This document shows positions 748 through 44,273 of a stretch of 64,000 nt of DNA, piece by piece (position 1 is the first letter of the stretch; every line of letters starts with the position of its first letter). The position numbers and the translations under genes were made by a program. The notes under the pieces were generated by a model. The model was given only the letters and a program-made list of their open reading frames with translations, searched no databases and was not told the DNA's origin. This stretch comes from Sphingobacterium sp. UBA4616 (lineage in GTDB: Bacteria; Bacteroidota; Bacteroidia; Sphingobacteriales; Sphingobacteriaceae): assembly GCA_002386525.1 (NCBI GenBank), contig DGIS01000004.1:1-64000 (forward strand), written 5' to 3'.

Positions 748-3700
748 ATGAAACACAAATTACTCAGTTTTTTCGTGGGTAGTATGATTCTTACTTCTGT
801 TGCGTTTGCGCAGGATAGAAAGGTCAGTGGTCATGTTACAGGAGCAGATGGAAAGCCATTAGCAGGAGTAACTATCGTTGTCCAAGGGTCAAATGTTGCC
901 ACACAAACAGATGCGAATGGTAATTATTCATTATCAGTGCCTAACGGTAAAGTTATTGTATTTCGCTCAGTAGGTTTTGCTGATAAAACATTAATTGTTA
1001 AAGAAGGGCAATCTTCTTTTAATGTGATGTTGGATAATGCAGATAATGCGCTGGATGAAGTGGTTGTAACAGCTATGGGTATTACTCGCTCAGAAAAATC
1101 ATTAGGCTATTCGGCTACAAAAATTGGCGGAGAACAGCTTGCTGCGGCTAGAAATACTAACGTATTAAGTTCCTTAGCTGGTAAAGTAGCTGGTGTAACT
1201 GTAAACTCGACGGGGCCCGCTCCTGGTTCCGCATCGTCTATTACGATTCGTGGTTACGGTTCAATGACGGGGAGCAATGAACCATTGTATGTGGTAGATG
1301 GGGTTCCGTTGCAATCGGCGACATTTAATACTCAAGGTAATTCAATTCAGGGTGGAGGTATTTCCGGTATATCTTCTGATGACATTGAATCAATGACCGT
1401 GCTTAAAGGGGCAGCAGCAACAGCACTTTATGGGAGCCGTGCGGCAAATGGTGTTGTTGTAATAACAACCAAAGCAGGTAAATCAGGTAATGGTAGAAAT
1501 TTTTCCATAGCATATAACGGTGGTATTCAATTGCGTCAGAATTCAGTATTTCCTATCATGCAAAATGAGTTCGGTCAAGGATGGAATGGACAACAAACGT
1601 TTATTGAGAATGGATCTTGGGGGCCTCGTTTAGATGGTAGTCAGCAAGTATTTGGTCCTATTTGGAATAATCAACAGCTTTTTCATCCTTACTCTGCCCA
1701 AAAGAATAATGTTAAAGATTTTTTTGAAATAGGAAAATCGTTTAATAATAGCGTTTCTCTTAATGGTGTATCTGAAGATAGAAAGATGAATTATTATTTA
1801 TCTTATTCAAATGTCAAAGATAATGGAATTATGCCTACAGATGCAGATTCTTATAAAAGAAATACCATTGCTTATCGTACATCTTACCAAGCTGCCGATT
1901 GGTTGAAAGTGTCTTCGAACTTGAATTTCAATACTAGTAAGACCGATGTGGCTGGTAACTATCAAGGAACTTCTATCATTGACGGTCTATTGGAATTGCC
2001 TAGAGACATCTCCATTATTGACAAAAAGGATCTAACAAGCCCGTTTAATACTCCAGAGGCCTATTTTACACCTTATGGTATTACGAATCCTTATTGGGCG
2101 CTTGCTAATAACTATAATAGATTAAATTCGAAACAATTTAATGGTAAGTTACAGTTGGATATTAAGCCAATCAAAGAATTGAATTTAACTTATCGTTTTG
2201 GTTTTGATCATATTGACTATGATCGTAAAGTTGGAACTCCTGAAATCAATCTTGACGACAAGTTGATCGATAATGATTATGGATATGCACCTTCTAATAT
2301 GAACCAGTCAGGAGCGGTTGATGTTTATTATGGACGAAACTATGAACTCAACCATGACTTTTTAGCAACTTACGATAAAAGTTTTGAGAAATTCACGTTC
2401 ACCGGTATTGCTGGAATGAACTTAAATGAGCGGTATAGCACATCTATAAATGGTAAAACCGAAAGTCTTGCAATATATGAGAATTTTTGGCAGCTAAATA
2501 ATGGTGCAACTAGATCTGCCTTGGGTGAGACACAATCAAAACGTAGACTAGTAGGTCTATTTGGGGATATTACCTTGGGGTATGACGAAACGGTATTTTT
2601 GAACTTAACTGCTAGAAATGATTGGTCGTCTACATTGCCAGTAAACAAAAATCATTTTTTCTATCCAGGAGCTACATTAAGTTGGATCTTTACAAACAAC
2701 TTACCTAAGAATAATATTTTGACTTTTGGTAAGGCCCGTTTGGCTTATGGGAAAACGGGGAATGATGCTGGCGTTTATCAGACTTCTGCTAGATATATCC
2801 AAGCTGCAGCAGCGGGATATTACGCTGGTAGTATTGCTGCATTTCCTTTTAATAATAAAAACTCATTCTTGCTAAGTACTCAAAATGGTAGTAATACTTT
2901 GACTCCGGAAATGAATAAAGAGTTTGAAGCTGGTGTTAACCTTAAGTTTCTTAACAATCGAATAGGATTAGACGCGGTTTATTATAGCAGAACTCGTACT
3001 AACCAGATTTTTCCACTATCTATCGATCCTGCCACAGGATTTGCAACTATGGTAACGAATGTGGGAAATGTAAGGAATAGAGGGGTTGAGTTTTTGTTGA
3101 GTACAACTCCTGTGAAAACTGAAAAATTCCGTTGGGATTTGGATTTGAATTTTACAGTGAATAAGAATAAGGTAATTTCTTTGCCAGCCGAGCTGGGGGG
3201 GAAATTCGAAGTGAACAGATTCTCTGCAGGAAATGATGCGGTATATATGTATGCTGAAGAGGGAAAACCTTTGGGAACTTTTTATACTTATCTTCCGCAA
3301 TATGTTGAAGATAAAAGCAGTGAATATTTCGGGAAGTTAATAGTTGGAGAGGATGGTTTACCGATCTTAACTGCTGATGTGCAGAGTACTGGTAAAAATA
3401 TTCAACCAAAATGGGTTGGCGGTGCCACCACTTCTTTCAGTGCTTATGGGTTTACACTTAGTGCAGCTTTAGATGTGCGCGAAGGAGGTTATATGTTCTC
3501 TAGAACTAAAAATTTAATGCAGTTTACAGGTAACGGTATTGAAACGATGTATAACGATCGTAATCCATTTATTATACCAAATTCTGTAGTTGATAACGGT
3601 AGTGGAACATATTCAGAAAATACCAACCCAATTAAAATGTCTACCTCGGGACTTCAAAACTATTGGAATAAAACAGGTGGAGTGGCAGGTGGAGAATATT

Positions 3701-29914: not shown

Positions 29915-31414
29915 TTATTTTTTGTCCCACCATACTTTAGATAAGAAAGAATCTCCATTCGTCATTCTGGCTGCCGCTTCCTTTACATGTGTTGCGTTCA
30001 ACTCAGCCTCTTCACTGGAGTATATTGCCCTGCGTGGTATCTGTCCGTTGGTTGAACCTGGATTAGGGCCAGGGGTTAAGCTGGGGTATCCGGTACGTCG
30101 CCATTCCGCGAAAGCTTCCATGTTCCTGCCAAAAAGGTGAATCCATTTTTGCGTCGCTATTTTTTCCATTTTCTGTTCGTCTGTCAAACCACTTAAATTG
30201 ATCACAGATTCGTATGCTAAAGGAATAGACGAAATATTATATGGCGGTAAAGCCAGCGCAGCTTTGACACCTTCTGTAAAAAATGCTTGTGCATTTGCAC
30301 TTGTAGCTCCCCAGCCCAGCAGCGCAGCTTCAGCTTTGTAAAAGCATATATCCGAATAGGTAAAGGCATAGCTTGGAATCGGAGCAAAGGTGAGACTGAA
30401 CCATGTTGACTTATTGGCCGTGGAATAGTTGGCACGAATCAACTGTGACAACTGATTATCCGTTAAAGCAACGCCAATACCTTGATATGTTGCTGTACCA
30501 TTGAATTGGACAGGCTCGGCAAGCAGTGAAAGCCTAGGGTCCTTATATTCTTTCAGTTTATCGACTAACGTATTGGCAAGATAACGCAGATCCGCACTCC
30601 CTGTTGTCATTTGACGTAGAATAGGATTTTGATTTTCAGCTTGAGCATCGTTGTAGGTAGGAACTGCGGCATTATCACTATTGCTGGTGAATAGACCTAC
30701 AGGAGACGACATTGCTTCGCTAACTGTTTTTTGCGCCAAAGACGGGTTGGCATACCGCATACGCATACCGACTTTGAGTTTGAGCGAATTGCCGAATTTT
30801 TTCCATTTTTCAATACTGCCTTTGTAAAAGAAATCTGAAGATCCGTAAGACTGGTCTCCTGTTGTAAGCTTAGCGATAGCTGCATCGATTTTTTGGACCA
30901 ATGCTGGATAGATCTCTTCTTGTTTGTCAAATTTGGGCGTGCGATTGATTTCCTTATTGGATTGTGTGATCTCGGAGTAAGGGATGTCCCCAAACAAGTC
31001 AGTAAGGCGCTGATAGAGATATGCCTCGTAAAGTTCGGCGATAGCCAACTTACTTCTTCCTGCTGCATTGTCTTCCTTGCCGCTCAATTCCTGTTTGATC
31101 TGAACGATGTTGCGGAGCAAGGTGTAGTGCTGCGACCAGATCAGATTTTCGGGTCCTTCAAAATATCGAGAAACAGGCACTACCGGACCTCCAGCCCAAT
31201 GTTGGATCCAAGAGCCAAACTTGTTGTTGGGTAGTTCCCCAGATTCCTGAAAAGTACCATCACGTAGGATACGTGCTATGAGTAAAGATGGATCTACAGT
31301 GGTAACAGATGTGGGAGGCGTATTGATTCGTTCGAAATCTTTGGTACAGGCTCCTAGTCCTGCCACAGAAATAAGTCCGAAGATGAATGTATTTTTAAAT
31401 AGTTTCTTTTTCAT
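29915..31414 (-). CDS. SusD/RagB-family lipoprotein, SusD-like_2 type (locus 3)
   Basis: 499-aa surface lipoprotein. The signal ends GLGAC, followed by TKDFERINTPPTSVTTVDPSLLIARIL, the SusD-like_2 opening. KWKKFGNSLKLKVGMRMRYANP is the diagnostic mid block, and WIHLFGRNMEAFAEWRRTGYP the C-terminal one. It is the partner of the SusC encoded directly upstream, whose stop lies 10 bases before this ATG. The frame also opens at 31435, overlapping the SusC end, but MKKKLFK at 31414 starts the signal peptide. Confidence 0.93.
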   Translation of the reverse strand: MKKKLFKNTFIFGLISVAGLGACTKDFERINTPPTSVTTVDPSLLIARILRDGTFQESGELPNNKFGSWIQHWAGGPVVPVSRYFEGPENLIWSQHYTLLRNIVQIKQELSGKEDNAAGRSKLAIAELYEAYLYQRLTDLFGDIPYSEITQSNKEINRTPKFDKQEEIYPALVQKIDAAIAKLTTGDQSYGSSDFFYKGSIEKWKKFGNSLKLKVGMRMRYANPSLAQKTVSEAMSSPVGLFTSNSDNAAVPTYNDAQAENQNPILRQMTTGSADLRYLANTLVDKLKEYKDPRLSLLAEPVQFNGTATYQGIGVALTDNQLSQLIRANYSTANKSTWFSLTFAPIPSYAFTYSDICFYKAEAALLGWGATSANAQAFFTEGVKAALALPPYNISSIPLAYESVINLSGLTDEQKMEKIATQKWIHLFGRNMEAFAEWRRTGYPSLTPGPNPGSTNGQIPRRAIYSSEEAELNATHVKEAAARMTNGDSFLSKVWWDKK

Positions 31415-31424
31415 AATAAAGGGT

Positions 31425-34400
31425 TTACAGACCAACTGTGAGGTTAATACCGAATGTGCGCATCATAGGAAGTGAAGTTGATTCAATACCGATGGAGCTA
31501 TTGTTAACATTGAAGGCAGAGGCTTCTGGTGAAAATCCATCAGTTTTCCGTTGAAAATAAAATAGGTTTCGGCCATAGACGCCTAATTTTAGGGAATTAA
31601 CAAGTTTATGTGGCATCAGCTTTTTAGGGAAAGAATAAGAAAGACTGATCTCGCGCATGGCGACATAGCTCATATCATTGATCATTTCTTCAGAGACCAT
31701 GACTTCTTTATCACTGGCTACCATGTTCCAGTAATCTTGTGCGGCAACTTGCTTACTGTTTTGGGTTCCGGTACTTGTCCAGTTTCCTGCCCCATCTTTT
31801 TGGCCGAGCATCCCTGCCGCAACGTAAGTTCCATCTCGTCCTTCTAGGGTCTTCGTTGAAGTCCCATAGATAATCTGTTCGCGGTTCGACTGGGAGAAGA
31901 TCACACCGCCCTGACGGATATCGACAAGCGCGTAGAGGTTGAAACCTTTATATTTAACTGTATTGGCAAAACCTCCCAACCAATCGGGTTGTGCATTTCC
32001 AAGATCGGTTTCTACACGTCCAGCTGTGCGTACGGGGAGCCCAGTGGTAGGGTCAATCAACCTATTTCCCTGATCATCTTTGATCCACGCAAACTGTGTC
32101 CCAATCAGCTGGCCAAATGGTTTTCCGACCTCCGCAACTACGTTTATCCCGCGATCTGTAGCGAGTAAAAAGCTTTCTACGCCCGGGTAAAGTGATTCTA
32201 CTTTATTCCGGTTGCGGTTATAGTTAAACGTTGTATTCCACTCAAATCCAGATTCGCTTTTTACCGGTGTTGCTCCTAACACAAATTCAATACCTCGGTT
32301 GCTAATTTCCCCTGCGTTGATTCTGTTTTTCACATAGAGACTAGAAGGAGCAATGGGCACATCCAGAATCTGATTCTTTGTTTTGGCCTGATAGTAGGTG
32401 AAGGAGAACGAAAGTCTGTTTTTCAGAAATCGCAGATCTGCTCCAGCTTCGATTGATGTAGTCAATTCGTTTTTCAGATTTGGATCCGGTATGATTTCTG
32501 TATACGAAGCCATTGGTACACCGCCGTGGGTGTATTGGTTGAGACTATATGCTCCTGTCAATTGATAGGGGTTTCCTGAACTTCCTGCCTGTGCCCATGA
32601 AGCTCTGATTTTGGCGAAAGACAGTGCGTCAGATTGCCATTTGAAGGCATCCGATAAGACTAAACTGGAACTTACACTCGGGTAGAAAAACGAATTGTTT
32701 TCCTTTGACAGGGTCGAAGACCAGTCGTTACGGGCAGAGAAATCAACAAACCAATAGTCTTTGTAACTGAATTGACCCGATAGATAAGCCGAATTAATCT
32801 TGGACTGGATCAAGTCAAATATGTAACTGTTTGTGGTGGTGTTGTTGATGACAAAGAGGTTGGGTACAATAAACTGATTCCCTGAATTTCCTGTCATACG
32901 TAAATATCTATTTTGGTGACTGGCACCTAAGTTGGCACTGAGTTTAATATCGTCGGTCAACTTAAAGTTGGAACTTGCTAGGATATCAAAATTGTCTTCG
33001 CGGGCTCTGATGACCTCTTCTCGAATATCTCCCTTTCTGTTTAAGCTTTGGTAGGTATTGATTGGACGGTAGCGAAACCTTTGATCAGTATAGAAATCGG
33101 TACCTCCAGTCGCTGTTACCTTTAGCCAAGGGGCAAAGTCGTAACTCAGACGGAGCAAGCCAATAATGCGATCGCGGCGATCTTCATTGTGATTTTCATG
33201 AATGGTCCAGAACGGATTTGCTGTGGAGCTATTGGTGGCATATGTTTTTTCCAATCCTTCCGTCAATCCCGAAAATCCGAGTTGTCTACTGATCTCCTGT
33301 GCTGTCCATTTATACTGTGCCAGGATGTCGTTGCCTAGGCTTCGCGGCTGGCTGATGAATAGGTAAGCCGGGTTGTCTGCTGCATCAGCCAATGTAGGCC
33401 GGTTCTGTCCCTTTTGGGCGATATAGTTCGCCTTGATGTCGATATGAAATTTGTCGGTTATCTTGGCTTGGGTGCGCAGACCAAAATTGTTTCTTTTGAG
33501 CGTATTTGTAGGAATGTATCCTTTCACATCGGTATTAGCGAACGAGAAGCGATAGTTGACTTTGTCTGTTCCGCCGTCGATACTAAGGTTGTTGGTAAAC
33601 TGTTTCTCCGTTTGAAAAAAAGATGAGTAGGTATCTGGCTTTGGTGTTAACTGTAAGATGTTGCCATAAGCGTCTTCATAAGTCTGGCCTTCCATCTTCG
33701 CTCCCCAGCTTGCTCGCGTTGTACGATCACGTCCGGCGCTCATTTTAGGTATACCACTGTAACCATTTTTCAGCGCTTCACTCATGGAGACAATGGTGCC
33801 GTCATCTTTTCTAAAATGTGTAAATGTACCGTTCAGTCCCTGGCCGTAGACATTTTGAAAATCAGGTAAAACTAACCCATTACCTAATGAAAAATCTGTC
33901 CCATAGTTAAATCGGGTTTTTCCGGCTTTACCCGATTTGGTTGTGATCAAAATAACACCATTACTTCCTCTTTGTCCATAAAGTGCGGCCGCATTTGGGC
34001 CTTTCAATACCGACATCGTTTCGATATCTTCGGGATTAATGTTTCCAATTCCGTCACCATAATCTGTTCCCCCTGACTGATTTGGAGACGAAATATTTTG
34101 GTTGTCTATCGGTACTCCATCCACCACATACAGGGGCTGGCTATTACCGATAAGGGAGTTGTTACCCCGGATCACGACCTTGGACGAACCCCCGGCACCG
34201 GATGCGGCGCGGCTCACCTGTACGCCGGCAACCTTACCTGATAGGGCATTGGCGACATTGGTTTCTTTACCCTGCGTTAGCTCGTCGCCTTTGAGTTCAG
34301 CGACTGTATAACCCAGTGCTTTTTTTTCGCGTTTGATACCAAGTGCGGTGACGACAACTTCCTGTAGATTTTGCGCGCTCGATTCCAAACTGATATTGAT

Positions 34401-34781
34401 CGCTAGTTTGTCCCTGTCCGTAATGGTGTAATCCACCAGTTCTTTGCTCTCAAAACCAATGGAAGATACGCTGATTTGGTAGCCCTGTCCAGCGGGAATC
34501 TGGTCGAGCGAAAAGGTTCCATCAGGCCTGCTGCTTGTGGTTTTTTTCATTCCGCTTGTCGCATTACGTATGGTAACCGTCGCCGAGGGGATGGGCTTTC
34601 CTGTTTCATCTTTGATTACTCCATTAATGGTCGCATTTTGTTGGGCGTCAGCAAGAAAATAGCTTGTTGACAAAAGCCCCATGAGGCCTAGACGAAATGC
34701 CCAGTTTACGTCGGCTCTAATGTTGGATCTCAACAGTAGCATAGTCAGGATACTATGCTTGGAAGGTAAATAATTGTGCAT
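31425..34781 (-). CDS. SusC/RagA-family TonB-dependent transporter (locus 3, FecR/ECF-linked)
   Basis: 1118-aa outer-membrane transporter. A long, positively charged N-terminal stretch (MHNYLPSKHSILTMLLLRSN...) leads to the signal core GLMGLLSTSYFLADAQ. A carboxypeptidase-regulatory-like domain (~50-130) follows, then LQEVVVTALGIKREKKALGY. The plug holds PLYVVDGVPIDNQN and ALYGQRGSNGVILITTKSGK, and the end is MRTFGINLTVGL. Transporters that signal through FecR normally carry an STN domain before the plug. None is visible here, because the sequence runs straight from the signal peptide into the beta-sandwich. It is in an operon order sigma-FecR-SusC-SusD. Confidence 0.95.
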   Translation of the reverse strand: MHNYLPSKHSILTMLLLRSNIRADVNWAFRLGLMGLLSTSYFLADAQQNATINGVIKDETGKPIPSATVTIRNATSGMKKTTSSRPDGTFSLDQIPAGQGYQISVSSIGFESKELVDYTITDRDKLAINISLESSAQNLQEVVVTALGIKREKKALGYTVAELKGDELTQGKETNVANALSGKVAGVQVSRAASGAGGSSKVVIRGNNSLIGNSQPLYVVDGVPIDNQNISSPNQSGGTDYGDGIGNINPEDIETMSVLKGPNAAALYGQRGSNGVILITTKSGKAGKTRFNYGTDFSLGNGLVLPDFQNVYGQGLNGTFTHFRKDDGTIVSMSEALKNGYSGIPKMSAGRDRTTRASWGAKMEGQTYEDAYGNILQLTPKPDTYSSFFQTEKQFTNNLSIDGGTDKVNYRFSFANTDVKGYIPTNTLKRNNFGLRTQAKITDKFHIDIKANYIAQKGQNRPTLADAADNPAYLFISQPRSLGNDILAQYKWTAQEISRQLGFSGLTEGLEKTYATNSSTANPFWTIHENHNEDRRDRIIGLLRLSYDFAPWLKVTATGGTDFYTDQRFRYRPINTYQSLNRKGDIREEVIRAREDNFDILASSNFKLTDDIKLSANLGASHQNRYLRMTGNSGNQFIVPNLFVINNTTTNSYIFDLIQSKINSAYLSGQFSYKDYWFVDFSARNDWSSTLSKENNSFFYPSVSSSLVLSDAFKWQSDALSFAKIRASWAQAGSSGNPYQLTGAYSLNQYTHGGVPMASYTEIIPDPNLKNELTTSIEAGADLRFLKNRLSFSFTYYQAKTKNQILDVPIAPSSLYVKNRINAGEISNRGIEFVLGATPVKSESGFEWNTTFNYNRNRNKVESLYPGVESFLLATDRGINVVAEVGKPFGQLIGTQFAWIKDDQGNRLIDPTTGLPVRTAGRVETDLGNAQPDWLGGFANTVKYKGFNLYALVDIRQGGVIFSQSNREQIIYGTSTKTLEGRDGTYVAAGMLGQKDGAGNWTSTGTQNSKQVAAQDYWNMVASDKEVMVSEEMINDMSYVAMREISLSYSFPKKLMPHKLVNSLKLGVYGRNLFYFQRKTDGFSPEASAFNVNNSSIGIESTSLPMMRTFGINLTVGL

Positions 34782-34806
34782 AATTTGTGGGTTAATTGAG
34801 TGAATT

Positions 34807-35832
34807 TTATTCGGTTTGTACGTGAATGGTTATGCTATGAAGTGCTTGGATATCAGCTAGCATGTTGAGGTATGCGGATGCCGTATTTTTATACGTTCCA
34901 CTATAGTATTTATCTTGTATATCTTTAGGTTCAAAGTTTAGTTTAACCGCATAATTATGACTGATGATATGAAGTACATCGTGCAAAGAGAGGTTTTTAA
35001 AGATCAGTTGTCCACTTGTTTTTAGATATGATCCCCTTTTGCTGGATTGAGAAGCATTGATTCGGGTTTCGGCAACGATCTGTTGCTGCTTGCGGTCAAT
35101 GCTGATTTCTTCATTGGGTAAAAACTGCAGGTTTAAGGGTTTTTTATTTCCGGAACTTGTATTGCTTTTGACTTCAATACGGCCTTCATAGAGTTTTATT
35201 TTTGTAATCGCGCTAACATCTTCTTCCACACTGAAAACAGTGCCAAGCGCGGTTGTTGTCAAATCTGCCGTATGAACGCGAAATGGCTTTGCCTTATTTT
35301 TTGCTACGGTAAATTTGGCTTTACCTATCAATAGGATGTCGCGTGAAGTAGTGCCCGCGAAATTGGAACTAAATTTCACTTCAGAATTGGGGAATAGTTC
35401 GATCTTAGATCCATCTGGAACTTCAATGTGTTGAACAGTATTACCTGAATTGATATAATACAAATTGTCGGGCTGCTCCTGCGGAGATGCTTCAATTTTT
35501 TTGGAACTAAGATAGGTGGTATGAGGTTTCGGAGGATCTATCTGGGTAAATCCTATCCAAGCTCCGATTCCAACGAAGATAATAATGGCAGCATATTTTA
35601 ACCAGTTGAAACGATACTTGGCTTTTTGCGCTACTTGTTTGAAAATATGCGCTTTTATTTCTTTTTGGTTTTTAAAATCCGAATCCACCTCATATTCTTG
35701 CCATTCCGTCTCCGGCATAAGATCCTCCCAATAAAACTCGTTATTAGCTAGCGCGTTTTCTATGGCCGAAATTTCTTCCGCATTGGCTTTACCGCTTAGG
35801 TAATTGTCGATCAATTCTTTTGTAATCTTCAT
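34807..35832 (-). CDS. FecR-family anti-sigma factor
   Basis: 341-aa inner-membrane anti-sigma factor. Residues 1-75 are the cytoplasmic sigma-binding part (ITKELIDNYLSGKANAEEISAIENALA). One membrane helix follows at about 77-95 (FNWLKYAAIIIFVGIGAWIGF). The FecR beta domain follows at about 140-250 (VPDGSKIELFPNSEVKFSSNFAG, LIGKAKFTVAKNKAKPFRVHTADLTTTALGTVFSV). A C-terminal STN-like/DUF4974 domain ends it (GQLIFKNLSLHDVLHIISHNYAVKLNFEP). It holds the neighbouring ECF sigma (44 bases upstream) and should release it when the SusC transporter is loaded. Confidence 0.95.
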   Translation of the reverse strand: MKITKELIDNYLSGKANAEEISAIENALANNEFYWEDLMPETEWQEYEVDSDFKNQKEIKAHIFKQVAQKAKYRFNWLKYAAIIIFVGIGAWIGFTQIDPPKPHTTYLSSKKIEASPQEQPDNLYYINSGNTVQHIEVPDGSKIELFPNSEVKFSSNFAGTTSRDILLIGKAKFTVAKNKAKPFRVHTADLTTTALGTVFSVEEDVSAITKIKLYEGRIEVKSNTSSGNKKPLNLQFLPNEEISIDRKQQQIVAETRINASQSSKRGSYLKTSGQLIFKNLSLHDVLHIISHNYAVKLNFEPKDIQDKYYSGTYKNTASAYLNMLADIQALHSITIHVQTE

Positions 35833-35875
35833 CTAATAAGATTACGATCCAAAATGAGTTATCCCCCAAAAGAAG

Positions 35876-36406
35876 CTAAAAAATAATTTGCATCAGCATG
35901 CTGAACAATAAAGCCTTCCGAATGGTTTTTAGGGCTAGCGTTAGTTGATTTTCTACGGTTTTCGTCGATATGGCCATTTTTTCTGCAATTTCCTTATGCG
36001 AAAGATTGGAAAATCTACTTAACATAAAAATCTCCTTGCGTTTCTTTGGTAATTTATCGACAATTTCATGGAGGGTTGATGTAAGTTGTTTGGCATAAAA
36101 ATCATCCTGGGGGCTATGGCGTAAGACAAATGTCTGATCGTGATCCAGAAGTTTCTTTCGGTTATATTCTGCCTTGACCAGATCGATCACCACTGTTCGG
36201 GTGATACAGAAAATTTGGGATTCTATGGTGGCATCGATATTTTTGTCACTCATATTTTTCCAGAGTTTGATAAATACACGCTGTACAGTTTCTTCGGCCA
36301 GATAAGATGATTTGGTTTTATGAAGTGCATATTGATAAACTTTGGAACTCCATAAGTCAAAGTAATCTTCAAATCTTCGGACATTAATCGTATAACTGAT
36401 TTCCAT
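35876..36406 (-). CDS. ECF-type RNA polymerase sigma factor (FecI-like)
   Basis: 176-aa ECF sigma of the Bacteroidetes-1 type. Region 2 includes FEDYFDLWSSKVYQYALHKTKSSYLAEETVQRVFIKLWKN. Region 4 is LPKKRKEIFMLSRFSNLSHKEIAEKMAISTKTVENQLTLALKTIRKAL with the helix-turn-helix. It is the first gene of the leftward locus sigma / FecR / SusC / SusD and is predicted to activate the SusCD genes when FecR lets go. Confidence 0.94.
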   Translation of the reverse strand: MEISYTINVRRFEDYFDLWSSKVYQYALHKTKSSYLAEETVQRVFIKLWKNMSDKNIDATIESQIFCITRTVVIDLVKAEYNRKKLLDHDQTFVLRHSPQDDFYAKQLTSTLHEIVDKLPKKRKEIFMLSRFSNLSHKEIAEKMAISTKTVENQLTLALKTIRKALLFSMLMQIIF

Positions 36407-36732: not shown

Positions 36733-37128
36733 ATGAAAAAATTAATTCAAACACTGGGACTAGGTATGCTTATTTTTACGGTATTAGTAGGTTTTACGGC
36801 ATGTAGCAAAGATGATGATCCGGCAGACAATGATCTTTTTATTGGAAAATACGAAGGTACAATCTCTTTTGATGATTTAAACAACAATGATAATGATGTT
36901 GCAGCGGCGGAAGGGACAGTTACGGTAACAAAAGCTGGCGATACCTATAATTTTGCTTTCGGAAATGGTATTCCTAATCTTAATGGAGTAGATTTTGAGA
37001 GAAAGGATAATGTCTTAATCAATATTGGTTCGGCAGGTACAGGAGTTATTCGTATTGATGCTGGAAAATTAACAATTGGCTACACAAAAGACGGAAAGGC
37101 TTGGACCGCTAATTGTAACCGAAAATAA
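36733..37128 (+). CDS. Small acidic lipoprotein, hypothetical
   Basis: 131-aa lipoprotein with signal ending GFTAC. An acidic linker (SKDDDPADND) follows, then a compact beta-rich domain (FIGKYEGTISFDDLNN...GTVTVTKAGDTYNFAFGNGIPNL...GTGVIRIDAGKLTIGYTKDGKAWTANCNRK). The layout resembles small calycin-like or DUF-type lipoproteins that follow the GxYxG pattern. The family is not firmly recognised. Monocistronic, with a GGTAT-type dyad upstream. Confidence 0.8.
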   Translation: MKKLIQTLGLGMLIFTVLVGFTACSKDDDPADNDLFIGKYEGTISFDDLNNNDNDVAAAEGTVTVTKAGDTYNFAFGNGIPNLNGVDFERKDNVLINIGSAGTGVIRIDAGKLTIGYTKDGKAWTANCNRK

Positions 37129-37598: not shown

Positions 37599-38528
37599 TC
37601 ATTTTTTATTGAAGTTGAAACGTCTAGCGATGCTGAATCCCCAGCGGAATTGTCCCTTAGCCCAAGAGCTATTTGTTTCGCTGATAAACTGAGATTCTTG
37701 AATTGCCGTCGCATTTGTGAAATTTAGATGGAATATATGTCCACCAGTATCCATTTCAATACCTATCCCTAAGGCATTATAATAACGCTGCCCACTTAAA
37801 TCTTCACGGTATTTTTTATTTGATGATTTTCGGAAAGGTATTGTATAGTCCGCCACTAATGCGACCCGATTGCTGACTTTCGCCCGTCCACCAATTCCAA
37901 GTGCAAACAAATCATTTTGATCATTATGTGCGGTATAGTTGCGGTGAAGATAGGAAGGTACCAAAACGAGCGATAGATTTGAACTGAATTTTCGAGCAAT
38001 AATGAGTTGCGTTACATAACTTAATCGGTCACTGAAGGTATCAAAGCTTGCAGCCGAAGCTTTATCAGTACTTGCCTCCATTGCAGATAGGGTAGTGCTT
38101 GCAAAAAGAGCTACGGAAATAGGGACACTATTATCTACTGTTTGGTCGATAAATCGGTATTTCACATTGCCCTCAAAGAGTTGTCTAACTTCTGTCGCAC
38201 CCTTCGCGCGGGCAATTCCGATATTTAGATTATCTAAGAGGCCATAATCAAATCCTATACGGATGTCTGTAGAATTATCCAGACCAAAGAAATTTTTCCC
38301 ACCGCCTGCACTGCCCGCGATATCACCAAAACGGTGATCTACTCGAAAGTCCATTTCATTTCGATGAATAGTCTCTGTTGTTTTAAGATTGATCAGGTTG
38401 CCGGATTTAAAGGTTGCTGTGACTTTTTCATTTTTCGGTGTATCGATATGAATCAATTTCTCAAGGTCTTCCTGGGCATATGATGTTGCAGAAGTTAAGC
38501 ACAAGAGTATAAGTAGCGTTTTTTTCAT
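37599..38528 (-). CDS. DUF5777-family beta-barrel protein
   Basis: 309-aa predicted outer-membrane barrel. The signal peptide is MKKTLLILL...SYAQ, followed by EDLEKLI. TETIHRNEMDFRVDHRFGDIAGSAGGGKNFFGLDNSTDIRIGFDYGLLDNLNIGIARAKG is the block that marks DUF5777, and the protein ends FRWGFSIARRFNF. It is the last gene of a leftward four-gene operon with YceI, a c-type cytochrome and a secreted-repeat lipoprotein. DUF5777 genes are often next to YceI and cytochrome genes, which suggests a role in extracytoplasmic electron or lipid handling. That is context only. Confidence 0.85.
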   Translation of the reverse strand: MKKTLLILLCLTSATSYAQEDLEKLIHIDTPKNEKVTATFKSGNLINLKTTETIHRNEMDFRVDHRFGDIAGSAGGGKNFFGLDNSTDIRIGFDYGLLDNLNIGIARAKGATEVRQLFEGNVKYRFIDQTVDNSVPISVALFASTTLSAMEASTDKASAASFDTFSDRLSYVTQLIIARKFSSNLSLVLVPSYLHRNYTAHNDQNDLFALGIGGRAKVSNRVALVADYTIPFRKSSNKKYREDLSGQRYYNALGIGIEMDTGGHIFHLNFTNATAIQESQFISETNSSWAKGQFRWGFSIARRFNFNKK

Positions 38529-38547: not shown

Positions 38548-39099
38548 TTAGGGTTTGTAGGTCGCATCAATATTTATTTTGACGACTTCAGCAATCTTTT
38601 TTCCAACGATCGATGGAATTGTTATTTTGTGATCTGCAAGTCTTACTTGAAAATTTGAAATAGCCCTTATCGTTCCATTTTTTACGATACACTCGACCTT
38701 TGTGCTGTAGGATTTGGTAACTCCATGAACCTGAAGTGTTCCTGTTATGTTGAGCGTATAATTACCGTCTTTTGTTAATTTGTCCGCATTTTCGACTTTG
38801 CCTTTAAATTCTGATAGGGGAAATTTGTCACTTTCCATGTAGTTTTCATTGAAATGCTCCTGCATCAGCTTTTTCTCAAATTGAAAAGATATATTTTTTA
38901 CTCTAAAAATGATGTCTCCGGTTTGAAGGTTTATAGCCGAAGCTCCTAATGTACTTTTAGCTTCAATATTCTCTAAAGGCGCGCTACTAAAAAAGGTAAT
39001 GCTGTTTTCTTTTGAAACAAGGTAGGTCTTTTGTTGAGCAAATGTCCCCACGCTGATAAGCATCATGAAGAGCACCATGTAAATGTTAATTTTTTTCAT
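38548..39099 (-). CDS. YceI-family periplasmic protein
   Basis: 183 aa with a signal peptide (ending TFAQ) and a lipocalin-like YceI domain: YLVSKENSITFFSSAPLENIEAKSTLG, FRVKNISFQFEKKLMQEHFNENYMESDKFPLSEFKG, NITGTLQVHGVTKSYSTKVE and the final VKINIDATYK. YceI proteins bind polyisoprenoid chains, such as quinones, in the periplasm. It lies between a c-type cytochrome gene (11 bases upstream) and DUF5777, consistent with a quinone- or isoprenoid-linked redox operon. Confidence 0.92.
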   Translation of the reverse strand: MKKINIYMVLFMMLISVGTFAQQKTYLVSKENSITFFSSAPLENIEAKSTLGASAINLQTGDIIFRVKNISFQFEKKLMQEHFNENYMESDKFPLSEFKGKVENADKLTKDGNYTLNITGTLQVHGVTKSYSTKVECIVKNGTIRAISNFQVRLADHKITIPSIVGKKIAEVVKINIDATYKP

Positions 39100-39109
39100 A
39101 TTGATATCA

Positions 39110-39517
39110 TTAATTTTCAGGTGAATTTCTCTTTATCCATGCGTCGAGCAGTTCTATTTCTTTTGAAGTTAGCGCCCCGCCTATCGGCATGGATTTGGTG
39201 ACCAGTACAGCGTTATTAATTCTTGCAATGTTGTCTTTTACGGAAGTATAGCCATTAAATGTCCATCGTCCGCTAGCCGAACGTCCTGTTCCGTGGCATG
39301 AACTACATTTGCTTTCGAAAAGAGCTTTAGAAAAATTCGTATACGATACATTCTCGGCTGTCACCGTTTCAGTACCGTTATCTGGATTGGTCGTAAGTTC
39401 CTGCGCCTGCTTTTTCGTACAGGCGGAGAAAGTGAGAGCCGATATGGTTAAGAGCGAAATGACGAAGTGATGATATGCTATGAGGCAAGGAATTGCTGTT
39501 TTGTGTTTTTGTGCCAT
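39110..39517 (-). CDS. Monoheme c-type cytochrome lipoprotein
   Basis: 135-aa predicted lipoprotein (lipobox FSAC, Cys33). It has one heme c motif, CSSCH (71-75), followed by GTGRSASGRWTFNGY. The sixth ligand is probably the Met in KSMPIGG, and the domain ends ELLDAWIKRNSPEN. It is a small periplasm-facing electron carrier, possibly delivering electrons to or from the neighbouring secreted-repeat lipoprotein. Second gene of the operon starting at 40395. Confidence 0.92.
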   Translation of the reverse strand: MAQKHKTAIPCLIAYHHFVISLLTISALTFSACTKKQAQELTTNPDNGTETVTAENVSYTNFSKALFESKCSSCHGTGRSASGRWTFNGYTSVKDNIARINNAVLVTKSMPIGGALTSKEIELLDAWIKRNSPEN

Positions 39518-39540: not shown

Positions 39541-40395
39541 TTAGTTTGCAGCAGCAACGGTTGTATTGTCATTTACGATCGGCCAAACGCCAACACGTGG
39601 GAAACTTATTCCTTTATTGTCACCATGTTGTATATCCTGACCGAAGTAATATAAGGGCCATCCTTTGAAAGTCAACTGTTTCTTTCCATAGACGCTAATT
39701 ACGGCGATATCAGTTGTACGAACAAGCGAAGGAAGAGCTCCTGTTTCTTTTTGAAAAATTGGCCAGATCGGATCATTGCTGAAATCTGCGGCAGTATAAT
39801 TGTTTTTGTTGAATTTATCAGGCTTAAAGGCATACAGTGTTCTACCTGTATCATCTGTTAGATACATTGTTTTTGCTATTCCTTCGGTATAATCACCTAA
39901 ATAGTTTTTACCGTCGTGTCCGATGAGTTGGGCATTGGCAACCATAAGTAAATAGTCGGGTTTGGCTACATACCATATTTTATTTATAGCATCCCCTTTC
40001 ACCTGACCAGATTGACCATCGCCTGCATAGTAATAAAGCGGCCAGCCTTTAAATGTACTTTGCTTGGAACCATCTTCGCGTGTGATTTCACCCATCAGGC
40101 TTTTATCAATTTTTACATCCGTACTTGTTTCGTTACTGTGGTAAACTGGCCAAGTTGCCAAACAATTACCATTACAGGTTGAGATGCCTTTTGTATCATT
40201 GGAGAAAAAGTACAGTGTTCTACCGTTTGCATCGGTCAGGATATTACCAAACTGGGCATTGGCAGATATTTGTATACCCCTATTTCTATTTTCTACATTG
40301 TCAGGAGCTGCATCGTTTTTTGAACATGCAGAAAACATTGTTAAGGTCAATAGACCAAGAAAGACTAGCTTTACGTGTTTTTTTGTTACTTTCAT
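39541..40395 (-). CDS. Lipoprotein with two secreted-repeat (COG4315 / PF03640) units
   Basis: 284 aa. The signal ends FSAC at the lipobox, with SKND following. The body holds two related units of about 100 residues. The first has GNILTDANGRTLYFFSNDTKGISTCNGNCLATWPVY and FKGWPLYYYAGD; the second has TMYLTDDTGRTLYAFKPD...DPIWPIF and FKGWPLYYFGQD. The family is often linked to redox proteins and oxidative or electron-transfer roles, without a proven reaction. The ATG at 40395 is chosen because the longer frame to 40539 runs through the promoter. It heads an operon with the cytochrome, YceI and DUF5777 genes. Confidence 0.88.
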   Translation of the reverse strand: MKVTKKHVKLVFLGLLTLTMFSACSKNDAAPDNVENRNRGIQISANAQFGNILTDANGRTLYFFSNDTKGISTCNGNCLATWPVYHSNETSTDVKIDKSLMGEITREDGSKQSTFKGWPLYYYAGDGQSGQVKGDAINKIWYVAKPDYLLMVANAQLIGHDGKNYLGDYTEGIAKTMYLTDDTGRTLYAFKPDKFNKNNYTAADFSNDPIWPIFQKETGALPSLVRTTDIAVISVYGKKQLTFKGWPLYYFGQDIQHGDNKGISFPRVGVWPIVNDNTTVAAAN

Positions 40396-40428
40396 ATGAG
40401 TGCCTTTTTTTAAATAATCTGTTGATAT

Positions 40429-40454
40429 TACGATCATTTCAAAAGAAAGGTTGC
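40429..40454 (-). promoter_or_regulatory. ECF-type promoter for the redox operon
   Basis: On the minus strand GCAACCTTTCTT (40454-40443), nine bases, then TCGTA (40433-40429). An identical -35/-10 arrangement on the plus strand lies 34 bases away and drives the ECF sigma gene. Counting GCAACC as -35 and CGTA as -10, the spacer is 16 nt, normal for ECF promoters. The lipoprotein ATG is 33 bases downstream. Confidence 0.72.
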
Positions 40455-40488
40455 TTTGAAATTGATTCAAAAAAAATATTTTTTGCAG

Positions 40489-40514
40489 GCAACCTTTCTT
40501 ATAATCCGTTCGTA
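40489..40514 (+). promoter_or_regulatory. ECF-type promoter for the sigma gene
   Basis: GCAACCTTTCTT (40489-40500), nine bases, then TCGTA (40510-40514), identical in layout to the divergent copy at 40429-40454. The sigma gene starts about 45 bases further on. The pair implies that this sigma recognises the motif and activates its own gene. Confidence 0.72.
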
Positions 40515-40558
40515 TTAGACTTAATACTATATTTATCAAAAGAAAGAAGCAATATCGA

Positions 40559-41137
40559 GTGGCGATAACAGAAGTTGACGAAAAATCTATCCATATTATT
40601 AAAGGATGTTTTGATGAGGACCGGAGAGCTCAGAAAGATCTTTATACCATTTACTATGCGATGTCTTTAGGTATATGTCTGCGCTACGCTAATAACAGAG
40701 AAGATGCACTAAGTATTTTAAATGAAGGTTTTTTTAAGGTTTTTAAAAATATTGGTAAATATGATTTTCAGAAGCCTTTTTCCATATGGATCAAAAAAAT
40801 CATGACGAATACTGCAATTGATTTTTACCGCGCAAAGATTAAACAGGGCTTCCTCCTCGATGTATCCTTGTATGAGCACGCTATTGTGGAAGATGATAGC
40901 ATCACTCAAAAGTTAAACTATGAAGACCTATTGGCGATGGTACAGCAGCTTCCACCGGCATACAGAACGGTGTTCAACCTCTACGCAATAGATGGTTATG
41001 GACATGAGGAAATTAGTGGCATGCTGGGTATTGCTATTGGAACATCAAAATCGAATTTACATAAAGCACGCGGGCGACTTGTACAAATAATGGAAGTTCA
41101 AGGTGTAAAATTTGGTAAAACTCAAGAGAAAGCATGA
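40559..41137 (+). CDS. ECF-type RNA polymerase sigma factor
   Basis: 192-aa ECF sigma. Region 2 includes YYAMSLGICLRYANNREDALSILNEGFFKVFKNIGKYDFQKPFSIWIKKIMTNTAIDFYR. Region 4 is LPPAYRTVFNLYAIDGYGHEEISGMLGIAIGTSKSNLHKARGRLVQIM. It starts with GTG at 40559. The next gene overlaps its stop codon (ATGA), so the two are translationally coupled. The paired ECF promoters upstream point to autoregulation and control of the divergent redox operon. Confidence 0.93.
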   Translation: MAITEVDEKSIHIIKGCFDEDRRAQKDLYTIYYAMSLGICLRYANNREDALSILNEGFFKVFKNIGKYDFQKPFSIWIKKIMTNTAIDFYRAKIKQGFLLDVSLYEHAIVEDDSITQKLNYEDLLAMVQQLPPAYRTVFNLYAIDGYGHEEISGMLGIAIGTSKSNLHKARGRLVQIMEVQGVKFGKTQEKA

Positions 41138-42348
41138 TGGAAAAGGATAAAAATAAGATTGATGAAATTTTCAAAGACGGCCTAAGTGATGTTTATTTTG
41201 AGTTTGATGAATCACATTGGCAAAATATAGAATCACGGTTGAATCAGTCAAATCGTTTAAAGAAAAGAAAGATTGTACTTTTAATAACATTAGCGACCAC
41301 AGTTGCAGCAGTTTTAATAGCTTTTTTTATCTGGAATGACCAATTATTTAAGTCTAACGATGTGCTGAATGAAATCAATGAAGCCAATATTTTGTCTGAA
41401 AAAGAGGGGCTGGAAAATGGAACTATTCATCGCCAGGAAAATTTGCGACATGAACCTGAACAAGATTTGGGTAGGGTTGCATTTCAGCCGCATACAGGTA
41501 TGAATAGTGGTTTAGCGGTACCAAGTGAAAATAGAATACTGCAAGATATTCTTTTAATGCAGGTCGCCGATATAAATTTGACAAGGATACAGGATGGAAA
41601 ACAGGAAACAACATTTACTATTCCTCGTATAGAATATAGTCATCGTAGATTACCTAGTTTCAACTTAAAAGAAGAACCGATTGAAGGGATAGGGGAGCGC
41701 TTGGCAGCTGTTTATCAACCTAAAGAAACCATAGGTGCCATGAGGAAGGAAGAAGAGCGGTCGGTTGTTAGTTTCCTAGTTGGGCCAGATCTTACAAGCG
41801 TACGTGGAGCAGGGAAATCTTCCCTTAGTGAAAATGTCGGCTTGGCTTATTCCTATCCGCTCGCAAAAGGATTTCATGTTTCTGTGGGAGCGACTTATGC
41901 TAAGAAGAATTATAAATCAGCATATAAGTTTTATACACCATCAAATCCACCGGAGATGGCTCAGTTGCCCAGCAATGTAAGTGCCGTTTGTGACGTTCTT
42001 GATGTTCCCTTGACAGCAAGTTACACCGTACTTAAAAGTAAAAACGTCAAATTTAATGTGAGCGCAGGGCTTTCAAGTTATTTTATGCTGAAGGAAAAAT
42101 ACACTTTCGATTATGAAGGTGGGGGGAGCTATAGCGGATCTCAAAACAGTGCCGTCTATGAAGTGAATGGCGAGAACCAGCATATCTTTGGTGTCGCGGA
42201 TTTTTCGGTTTCTATTGAGAAGAAAATCAACGATAAAATTAATATCGGCGTGAAACCATTTGTTAAAATGCCTTTGACGGGAATTGGGTATGGAAATGTG
42301 GATCTAGAATCTAAAGGGGTAGCATTTACTCTAGGAATGAGTTTGTGA
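41134..42348 (+). CDS. Membrane-anchored protein with periplasmic barrel-like domain, probable anti-sigma
   Basis: 404 aa. The N-terminal 45 residues are cytoplasmic and acidic (KIDEIFKDGLSDVYFEFDESHWQNIESRLNQ). One membrane helix lies at 47-67 (IVLLITLATTVAAVLIAFFIW). A linker to about 210 follows, then a beta-rich domain (VSFLVGPDLTSVRGAGKSSLSENVGLAYSYPLAKGFHVSVGATYAKKNY..., GVKPFVKMPLTGIGYGNVDL...GMSL) resembling the outer-membrane beta-barrel repeat of Bacteroidota porin-like proteins. The overlap with the sigma gene and the topology suggest an anti-sigma that senses through the barrel-like part. Proof is lacking. Confidence 0.82.
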   Translation: MMEKDKNKIDEIFKDGLSDVYFEFDESHWQNIESRLNQSNRLKKRKIVLLITLATTVAAVLIAFFIWNDQLFKSNDVLNEINEANILSEKEGLENGTIHRQENLRHEPEQDLGRVAFQPHTGMNSGLAVPSENRILQDILLMQVADINLTRIQDGKQETTFTIPRIEYSHRRLPSFNLKEEPIEGIGERLAAVYQPKETIGAMRKEEERSVVSFLVGPDLTSVRGAGKSSLSENVGLAYSYPLAKGFHVSVGATYAKKNYKSAYKFYTPSNPPEMAQLPSNVSAVCDVLDVPLTASYTVLKSKNVKFNVSAGLSSYFMLKEKYTFDYEGGGSYSGSQNSAVYEVNGENQHIFGVADFSVSIEKKINDKINIGVKPFVKMPLTGIGYGNVDLESKGVAFTLGMSL

Positions 42349-42518: not shown

Positions 42519-44273
42519 ATGAAAACACCTATATCCGTCTGTCTTATTCTGCTTTTAAGCTGTTTTGCCGCATACAGCCAAAAACCCATCCCACAGGAGT
42601 ATGACTTAGTCTGGTCGGATGATTTCGATTATCAAGGCACGCTAGATACAACCAAATGGAGCTACGAAGAAGGTTTCAAACGTAACCGCGAAGAACAATG
42701 GTATCAAAAGGAAAATGCTTTCTGTCGTAATGGCCTATTGATTATTGAAGCAAAAAAAGAACAACGCGAGCATCCGGGTTTTATTCAAGGCAGTAAAGAT
42801 TGGATTAGCAGCCGAAAGCAGATAAGGTATACTTCAGCTTCAATAAATACCTTAGGAAAGCAAAGCTGGAGATATGGAATTTTTGAAATTCGGGCACGTA
42901 TACCTGTTGGCGCTGGGCTTTGGCCTGCTTTCTGGACATTAGGAACGACCAAAGAGTGGCCATCCAATGGCGAAATAGATATTATGGAGTATTACCGTGG
43001 CAAAATATTGGCGAATATCGCGACAGGTACTGATCAGCGGTGGAAAGCCCATTGGTTCGGTCAGACTCGGGCAGTTAAAGATCTTGGGGGAAAAGCTTGG
43101 GCTGATCAGTTTCATATTTGGCGAATGATTTGGGACGAAGATGCTATTGCGCTGTATGTGGACGATATTGAGATGCTTCGCGTTACGATGGACCAATTGG
43201 TTAACCGTGATGGTACAGGCTTTAACCCATTTACCCAACCGCATTATCTGCTGTTAAATTTGGCTCTAGGCGGTACAAATGGCGGTGCGATAGATCATAA
43301 ATTACTTCCGGCAAAATATGAAATTGATTATGTACGGGTCTATCAAAAAGTGAAACCTGCTCAAGTGAGGAGTTTTAAACCAGGGGAAAGATGGACAGAC
43401 GACAGCGGTGATGTGATCAATGCACACGGCGGCGGCGTACTTCATCAGAATGGAAAATACTATTGGTATGGAGAGAAACGTGGTGGAACAACATCTCAGG
43501 GAGTCAATGTGTATTCATCTAATGATTTGCATCACTGGAAGTTCGAAGGATTGGCGCTAACACCGAGCGCAGATTCTACAAGTGATATTGCTTGGGGCTG
43601 TATTATGGAAAGACCAAAAGTTATCTATCAGGAGCAACTGAAAAAATATGTCATGTGGTTCCATCTCGAATTGAAAGGTCAGGGCTATGCTGCGGCCAGG
43701 GCGGCTGTTGCAGTAAGTGACTCACCTCTTGGACCGTTTCAGTTTGTCCATAGTTTCAGGCCAAATAACAATATGTCACGCGATATGAGTTTATTTGTGG
43801 ATACCGATGGGAAGGCGTACCAAGTGTATTCATCCGACGAAAATTATGCTTTACGCATGGTTCAGTTAACGGATGATTACCTCCATGTAACAGCGAAGGA
43901 TTCTTTACTATTTCGGAATCATAGGGAGGCTCCAGCATTATTCAAATACAATGATCGGTATTACCTGATCACCAGCGGATGCACGGGTTGGGCACCGAAT
44001 CGTGCCGAGCTCCATGTCGCCAAGAATCTTTTTGGTCCTTGGAAATCACTCGGTGATCCGATGCGGGGACCAAATTCAGCCTTGACTTTTGACGGTCAAT
44101 CGACATTTGTACTTCCCGTAGCAGGAAAAAAAGATTCCTTTATTTTTATGGCCGACCGATGGAAGCCCAAAGAGCTTATGGATAGCAGGTATATCTGGCT
44201 ACCTATTGATCTTCGGCATGAAAAAGTACAGATAAATTGGAGAGACCAGTGGGATTTAAGTGTATTTCATTAG
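42519..44273 (+). CDS. Bimodular glycoside hydrolase, GH16 plus GH43 (galactanase-like)
   Basis: 584-aa secreted protein with a signal peptide (ending AYSQ). Residues ~25-285 are GH16: WRYGIFEIRARIPVGAGLWPAFWTLG, the catalytic E-x-D-x-x-E (Glu152, Asp154, Glu157) in NGEIDIMEYY, and a final strand EIDYVRVYQKV. Residues ~300-584 are a five-bladed GH43 domain: AHGGGVLHQNGKYYWYGEKRGG, ERPKVIYQEQLKKYVMWFHLELKG, SRDMSLFVDTDGKAYQVYSSDE, TSGCTGWAPNRAELHVA and DSRYIWLPIDL. These blocks match the GH43_24/34 group of exo-beta-1,3-galactanases, which lack the usual catalytic base. With the following beta-galactosidase it suggests beta-galactan breakdown; other GH16 substrates remain possible. Confidence 0.87.
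   Translation: MKTPISVCLILLLSCFAAYSQKPIPQEYDLVWSDDFDYQGTLDTTKWSYEEGFKRNREEQWYQKENAFCRNGLLIIEAKKEQREHPGFIQGSKDWISSRKQIRYTSASINTLGKQSWRYGIFEIRARIPVGAGLWPAFWTLGTTKEWPSNGEIDIMEYYRGKILANIATGTDQRWKAHWFGQTRAVKDLGGKAWADQFHIWRMIWDEDAIALYVDDIEMLRVTMDQLVNRDGTGFNPFTQPHYLLLNLALGGTNGGAIDHKLLPAKYEIDYVRVYQKVKPAQVRSFKPGERWTDDSGDVINAHGGGVLHQNGKYYWYGEKRGGTTSQGVNVYSSNDLHHWKFEGLALTPSADSTSDIAWGCIMERPKVIYQEQLKKYVMWFHLELKGQGYAAARAAVAVSDSPLGPFQFVHSFRPNNNMSRDMSLFVDTDGKAYQVYSSDENYALRMVQLTDDYLHVTAKDSLLFRNHREAPALFKYNDRYYLITSGCTGWAPNRAELHVAKNLFGPWKSLGDPMRGPNSALTFDGQSTFVLPVAGKKDSFIFMADRWKPKELMDSRYIWLPIDLRHEKVQINWRDQWDLSVFH

Follow-up and report, generated by a model that had tools for sequence, protein, structure and literature searches.

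Two outward-facing ECF-type promoters at a Sphingobacterium locus probably couple a sigma factor and its predicted Dma-type partner to an envelope redox-type operon

Introduction

In Escherichia coli, the RpoE-RseA pair is autoregulated from a promoter whose -35 element contains AAC and is followed by T-rich bases, with a spacer of ~16 nt, and the gene of the anti-sigma factor is adjacent to that of the sigma factor. ECF sigma factors are abundant in Bacteroidota, where the functions and networks of many of them are obscure, and the Dma class of proteins has been described only recently. According to excerpted text of PMC12596196, Bacteroides thetaiotaomicron has 50 ECF sigma factors, and an earlier survey, likewise as excerpted, associated 6% of Bacteroidetes ECFs with a class I anti-sigma domain (PMC7406223). 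The available portion of PMC13088901 describes Dma2 as an anti-sigma domain followed by a helix, a disordered tether and a barrel, encoded beside a putative ECF21 sigma factor, and reports that the genes most strongly induced in the dma2 mutant were those of its own operon and their neighbours. In respect to promoters, the SM6 ECF-type promoters of Flavobacterium psychrophilum have a CGT box at the -10 position of mapped transcription starts (PMC9723704, in the part available). An autoregulated ECF sigma factor with a Dma-type partner is an already known kind of system; the comparison presented here gives one such system an explicit promoter and a near-complete regulon of two promoters.

Results

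The locus lies in a window of 64,000 nucleotides (the whole stretch of DNA that was analysed, from Sphingobacterium sp. UBA4616) and contains two promoter motifs. The right one, on the forward strand (40489..40514), has its -35 element GCAACC at 40489-40494 and its -10 element CGTA at 40511-40514 and points toward the sigma factor and partner genes, while the left one, on the reverse strand (40429..40454), has GCAACC at 40449-40454 and CGTA at 40429-40432 and points toward a lipoprotein operon. Both have a spacer of 16 nt, are oriented outward and are separated by 34 nt between their -35 boxes, so that our motif search of the window confirms the identical elements and spacer reported for the two strands in the preliminary description. 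Written as GCAACCTTTCTT-N9-TCGTA, the motif has only these two occurrences in the whole window, and no match was obtained in 100 dinucleotide-preserving shuffles of it. The 163 nt between both start codons (40396-40558) contain no exact match to TAnnTTTG, the box read by the primary sigma factor of Bacteroidetes. Ahead of the sigma factor gene we find an AAC-type -35, a ~16-nt spacer and a CGT-type -10, which is by motif the make-up of an ECF promoter, and the -10 assignment is supported by the CGT box of the mapped ECF-type starts of F. psychrophilum. The gene layout first described, with lipoprotein, cytochrome c, YceI and DUF5777 genes to the left and an ECF sigma factor gene overlapping that of a barrel protein to the right, agrees with the open reading frames and Pfam matches, with the correction that the lipoprotein gene likely starts at the ATG at 40395.

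Further out, a separate run of ECF sigma factor, FecR-type anti-sigma factor, SusC-like and SusD-like genes is located to the left of the target operon (29915-36406), and a conserved 131-aa frame without Pfam match (36733-37128) follows the 3' end of that operon in the window and in the related locus L031; in loci L033-L035 this frame is found ~2.2 kb downstream of the sigma start. At 42519-44273 there is a single 584-aa frame with GH16 and GH43 domains, followed by a GH2 beta-galactosidase-like gene.

Relatives of the locus were taken from 59 genomes, from a genome collection (33 loci) and from loci added later, and we compared 21 divergent lipoprotein/sigma loci from Sphingobacterium and Pedobacter which, many being from closely related species, do not represent 21 independent events. 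The preliminary description had proposed conservation of the pair at orthologous sigma factor genes as a check, and the outcome was positive: all 21 divergent loci keep both sites, each with at most one change. Among the 42 sites, 38 are without mismatch and four have one change, being GCAACT at the left site of three loci (L033-L035) and ACAACC at the right site of one (L125); the spacer is of 16 nt in 41, and of 15 nt in one right site. When the 21 regions were shuffled in two-base blocks (n=10500), a site appeared in one shuffle and both sites in none. The conserved core comprises GCAACC and CGTA, usually with TTT after GCAACC and with A, and often G, before it; these best-kept bases beyond the core are stronger at the right site, and some flanking bases are similarly well kept, as is expected among related species.

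A distinct arrangement is seen in four collinear loci, in which a single motif heads the joint operon, exact in three (L044, L046 and L144) and with one mismatch in the fourth (L157). In Solitalea (L044) the genes for a CHRD lipoprotein, a small CxxxCH protein without Pfam match, YceI, DUF5777, the sigma factor and the partner run in one direction, and the sole exact motif in 12.5 kb (3459-3484) is found 45 nt ahead of the first of them. In the remaining three the motif precedes the sigma factor gene: the order is sigma factor, partner, Rieske protein, DUF5777 and YceI in Arundinibacter (L046, where it is again the sole exact motif), sigma factor, partner, SprB-repeat protein, YceI and DUF5777 in L144, and sigma factor, partner, YceI and DUF5777 in L157, whose mismatch is CGTG. 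Since collinear loci bear one motif, at the operon head, motif number and place follow the operon layout, and divergent versus collinear gene order amounts to a natural experiment tying motif to target. Altogether, a common promoter motif before the sigma factor gene and the target operon is kept across species in 21/21 divergent and 4/4 collinear loci (one of these with one mismatch). As a separate observation, the only exact GCAACC-N16-CGTA of L157 (12213) is on the other strand, ~2.6 kb from the sigma factor gene and ~41 nt ahead of a frame that resembles a membrane protein and is cut off by the end of the locus.

We have also analyzed the size of the putative regulon in 60 Sphingobacterium genomes. 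With orthologues defined by at least 51% identity (the next best in the genus having ~44%), the sigma factor is found in 12/36 and 7/24 genomes, i.e. 19/60, and these 19 are also precisely the genomes that have a lipoprotein orthologue. DUF5777 is present in 18 of these 19; in addition, a broken DUF5777 gene is found in G036 (locus L128), a genome without the sigma orthologue. This co-occurrence, together with the head motif of the four collinear loci, supports the operon as the target, as had been proposed. A strict pattern, GCAACCTTT-N13-CGTA, has 28 matches in the sigma-bearing genomes, 27 of them at the locus, and nine in the 41 genomes without the sigma factor, the reversed pattern used as a control giving 17 in all 60. 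The one off-locus match is the third strict match of G024 and leads into the 3' end of a frame that runs toward it; three sigma-bearing genomes (G067, G082 and G083) have the pair without a strict match, owing to differences in the bases following GCAACC or in one core base. A relaxed pattern was run on 13 sigma-bearing genomes and matched 88 times, the locus accounting for 24 of these, compared with 90 matches of its reversed control; three genomes without the sigma factor gave 8, 10 and 9. Neither the strict nor the relaxed motif revealed a wider regulon, relaxed off-locus sites being no commoner than the control, and a plasmid search gave no match. The simplest reading, counting near-consensus sites only, would be two promoters per genome, which fits the small, self-contained regulon first suggested. 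A further case is L012, from genome G017, where both promoters are intact while the sigma orthologue is spread over two frames and an inner stop interrupts the second of these.

The sigma factor gene (40559..41137, forward strand) has a GTG start, kept in the closest orthologues, and codes for 192 aa which contain sigma-70 regions 2 and 4 only, with Sigma70_r2 (PF04542) and Sigma70_r4_2 (PF08281) over their cut-offs, as in ECF sigma factors; we regard it as Das-like. Many of the Sphingobacterium genomes searched also have a paralogous sigma factor (38-44% identity to the one studied here) with a short partner, an open frame of 246-317 codons that matches the front of the partner profile and not the barrel end. 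Upstream of the paralogue, GCAACC-N16-CGTCT is found in 23/24 loci, starting 34-50 nt upstream of the point where the first residue of the sigma profile aligns. The -35 and the 16-nt spacer are therefore those of the locus studied here, whereas the -10 reads CGTC followed by T instead of CGTA, also in the five genomes that carry both sigma factors (G011, G024, G070, G082 and G083). Beyond the orthologue set, which L015 overlaps, the regions upstream of 38 sigma relatives were scanned for GCAACC-N15..17-CGT, which occurs on the sense strand in 16 and is absent from 22, with no occurrence on the other strand or for the reversed control. The fourth -10 base in those 16 is C in 11 (seven being the CGTC paralogue), T in four and A in one; this last case, L015, is the same locus as L144 and is wired to YceI and DUF5777. 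In Siphonobacter (L051, L053 and L054), related sigma factor genes are preceded by GCAACG-N16-CGTA, with a variant -35; this pairing indicates that A as the fourth base is not confined to the orthologue group.

As the -35 is common to paralogous sigma factor genes, specificity may depend in large part on the fourth -10 base. Five residues distinguish the two groups of sigma factors fully or nearly so (16 versus 23 sequences), namely N55/Q, D88/E, N166/Q, K169/R and I14/W, and may reflect nothing but ancestry. One of them, D88, which we take to lie in region 2.4, is no more than a candidate for the residue behind the -10 difference.

The common -35 also invites the reading that the sites are promoters of other or of several overlapping ECF sigma factors, the neighbouring one being just one of them, and overlapping ECF regulons are discussed for Flavobacterium in the accessible text of PMC9723704. 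We consider this improbable, as the paralogue's own site is CGTC in nearly all of its loci, those of genomes with both sigma factors included, and as strict CGTA sites are at chance level in genomes without the sigma factor. Recognition of GCAACC-N16-CGTA by the neighbouring sigma factor, as initially put forward with the operon as its target, is thus the reading that the comparison supports, through the 21/21 loci, the co-occurrence and the regulon counts, and the dependence of both promoters on this sigma factor appears likely on these grounds.

The partner (41134..42348, forward strand; 404 aa) overlaps the sigma factor gene by 4 nt, and in the aligned loci the two genes overlap or are at most about 15 nt apart. 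An AlphaFold2 model built with 16 sequences has a mean pLDDT of 64 and a pTM of 0.49. By eye, the N-terminus has a charged stretch followed by a single hydrophobic one (~47-67), with no signal peptide at the very start, and the model places low-confidence helices at 6-18 and 26-84 (pLDDT 50-63 over residues 21-70). A mostly disordered tether extends to residue 205, with pLDDT below 50 in the poorly conserved residues 71-170 and 172-205. The C-terminal part is an eight-stranded barrel (211-403) with block pLDDT mostly of 82-93 and dips to 60 and 72, which matches PF13568 (OMP_b-brl_2) and whose fold matches include OmpA, NspA, OmpW and OmpX. Taken together with the gene neighbourhood and the likeness to Dma2, sequence and model suggest a Dma-type anti-sigma factor as the most likely identity of the partner.

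Relatives of the partner, where named, are called PorT family, outer membrane beta-barrel, porin family or hypothetical proteins, and it might thus be an ordinary barrel protein encoded downstream, with no anti-sigma function, a view to which the low model confidence of the N-terminal part also lends itself. This is unlikely in our judgement: the sequence opens with the charged and hydrophobic stretches and not with a signal peptide, and the N-terminal half of the partner matches the short partners of the paralogous sigma factors in 23 loci, in addition to the tight coupling of the two genes. An anti-sigma factor anchored in the membrane thus remains our preferred assignment, with action and topology both predicted.

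The four target genes, all on the reverse strand, are closely packed. The first (39541..40395) codes for a Lipoprotein_15 / SCO0930-like lipoprotein (PF03640, E 2.5e-35; the SCO0930-like model is below its curated cut-off), for which a sequence search against solved structures gave no match at E up to 0.1 and the AlphaFold2 model is of low confidence (mean pLDDT 59.1). It is followed by a small c-type cytochrome-like protein (39110..39517) with one CxxCH, for which PF13442 (E 1.5e-4) is below the Pfam cut-off and so is a cytochrome c551 model below its own. Next are a YceI-family protein (38548..39099; PF04264, E 2.3e-11), with no match among solved structures by sequence search at E up to 0.01, and a DUF5777 membrane beta-barrel protein (37599..38528; PF19089, E 2.2e-87), whose likely start is the ATG at 38528, two codons downstream of where the query began. 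YceI proteins bind isoprenoids; the term DUF5777 is absent from the open-licence papers listed among the matches of the literature search.

DUF5777 is widespread, being present in 133/149 genomes of a class-wide search. In 40 DUF5777 stretches, YceI was found in 31 and a cytochrome-like frame in 25, using our own profiles and with modest scores for the cytochrome. Pfam analysis of 69 hand-chosen neighbour proteins gave Cytochrome_CBB3 in 24, PSCyt1 in 13 and Cytochrom_C in four, the same protein possibly being counted in more than one cytochrome family, as well as Rieske in two and a plastocyanin/azurin type in one; tRNA_anti-like, in 12, is uninformative on redox function. The cytochrome, Rieske and cupredoxin-type neighbours, along with the Rieske protein of L046, point to envelope electron transfer, and we infer that the target operon is a module of this redox type. 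The sigma factor and partner are found beside only two of the 40 DUF5777 loci, L144, with the exact motif before the sigma factor gene, and L157, with one mismatch, so that most relatives seem to run the module without the circuit. An exact-motif scan of the other 38 stretches gave no match, and three of them match the sigma profile weakly (scores 30-37) and the partner not at all; all 40 (510 kb) contain two exact matches, one being the distant site of L157, and none for the reversed control.

It remains to consider the inverted repeat itself. The perfect inverted 12-mers first noted at 40443-40454 and 40489-40500 are indeed found in the window, and GCAACC and CGTA are conserved as a mirror-image pair; the full 12-mer mirror is not, bases 10-12 of the arms being identical between left and right in 1/21 loci, that of the window. 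Judged from these alignments the perfect mirror is partly a coincidence, and a function of the 12-mer identity as such was dropped from consideration. Palindromic operators are common between divergent genes, and so perfect a repeat could be that of a repressor or activator placed between two ordinary promoters. Such an operator is highly improbable, and we reject it: the arms are spaced variably, with 29 to 92 nt between the -35 boxes among the 21 loci, while GCAACC-N16-CGTA within them is fixed (one N15 apart), which indicates two promoters and not one palindrome, and moreover a single arm, heading the operon, is present in the collinear loci, and the paralogous sigma factor genes have one-sided GCAACC-N16-CGTC sites. 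Hardly credible, and equally rejected, is the reading that a transcript across the region forms an RNA hairpin or terminator here. The stable fold of the 86-nt stretch (-22.7 kcal/mol, z -4.63, with 0/200 shuffles as stable) is expected of any mirror-image promoter pair, whereas stem pairing is not conserved: the other 20 loci each match at 6 to 11 of 12 positions, and the four one-base changes each disrupt a pair that no second change restores. Moreover, conservation includes the -10 boxes, which lie beyond the 12-bp arms, and the single-motif loci are without such a stem.

Discussion

The locus as a whole is best explained by two back-to-back promoters of one ECF sigma factor, with autoregulation, a Dma-type inhibitor as partner and a four-gene envelope redox-type operon as target, a reading to which we assign, from sequence comparison, a probability of about 85%. 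The right promoter would drive the sigma factor gene and the overlapping partner gene, thereby accounting for autoregulation, and the left promoter the four-gene envelope operon. The cytosolic N-terminus of the partner would hold the sigma factor at the inner membrane, which a single helix would cross, with the disordered tether spanning the periplasm and the 8-stranded barrel residing in the outer membrane. If the outer membrane or periplasm were disturbed, the barrel or tether would sense it and the sigma factor would be set free to fire both promoters, yielding more sigma factor, more inhibitor and the redox-type module; the newly made partner would close the loop by shutting the sigma factor off.

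A broader proposal, which we offer tentatively and at somewhat less than even odds, is that a fixed -35 GCAACC with a 15-16-nt spacer is common to the Das/Dma-type sigma factors of Bacteroidota, which would be told apart largely by the fourth -10 base (A here, C in the paralogue and T in others), the locus studied here being a private sensor circuit in which an inhibitor tethered to the outer membrane would turn on a single envelope electron-transfer module, one that in most relatives works in the absence of this circuit. The parts that merit a bench test are the common -35 with a one-base -10 difference, which is directly testable as the paralogues occur in the same cells, and the redox-type target. 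The results also provide a functional lead for the widespread DUF5777-YceI module, often near cytochromes and now and then near Rieske or cupredoxin-type proteins.

In the open-licence literature, of which a small part of the matching text was covered, no GCAACC promoter was found for such sigma factors. Compared to known systems, the one described here shares with RpoE-RseA of E. coli the AAC-type -35 with T-rich bases, the spacer, a predicted autoregulation and an adjacent predicted anti-sigma factor, but RpoE-RseA has a large regulon whereas here there are two promoters and a predicted anti-sigma factor that would reach the outer membrane by its own barrel. With SM6, as far as the available text of PMC9723704 describes it, it has in common the CGT -10 box and the presence of an ECF sigma/anti-sigma pair among the targets; unlike here, SM6 precedes T9SS and other genes. 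The closest resemblance is to the Das/Dma systems of B. thetaiotaomicron (Das1-Dma1 and Das2-Dma2; ECF21), to which the locus is likened by their published layout: there the ECF sigma factor gene lies beside that of a protein with an N-terminal domain, a transmembrane helix, a tether and a barrel, the layout predicted for the partner, and the partner shares with Dma proteins the disordered tether, the C-terminal barrel and the adjacency of its gene to that of an ECF sigma factor. The difference lies in the targets, which in Das/Dma are polysaccharide loci or vesicle functions and here would be a divergent operon of the electron-transfer type.
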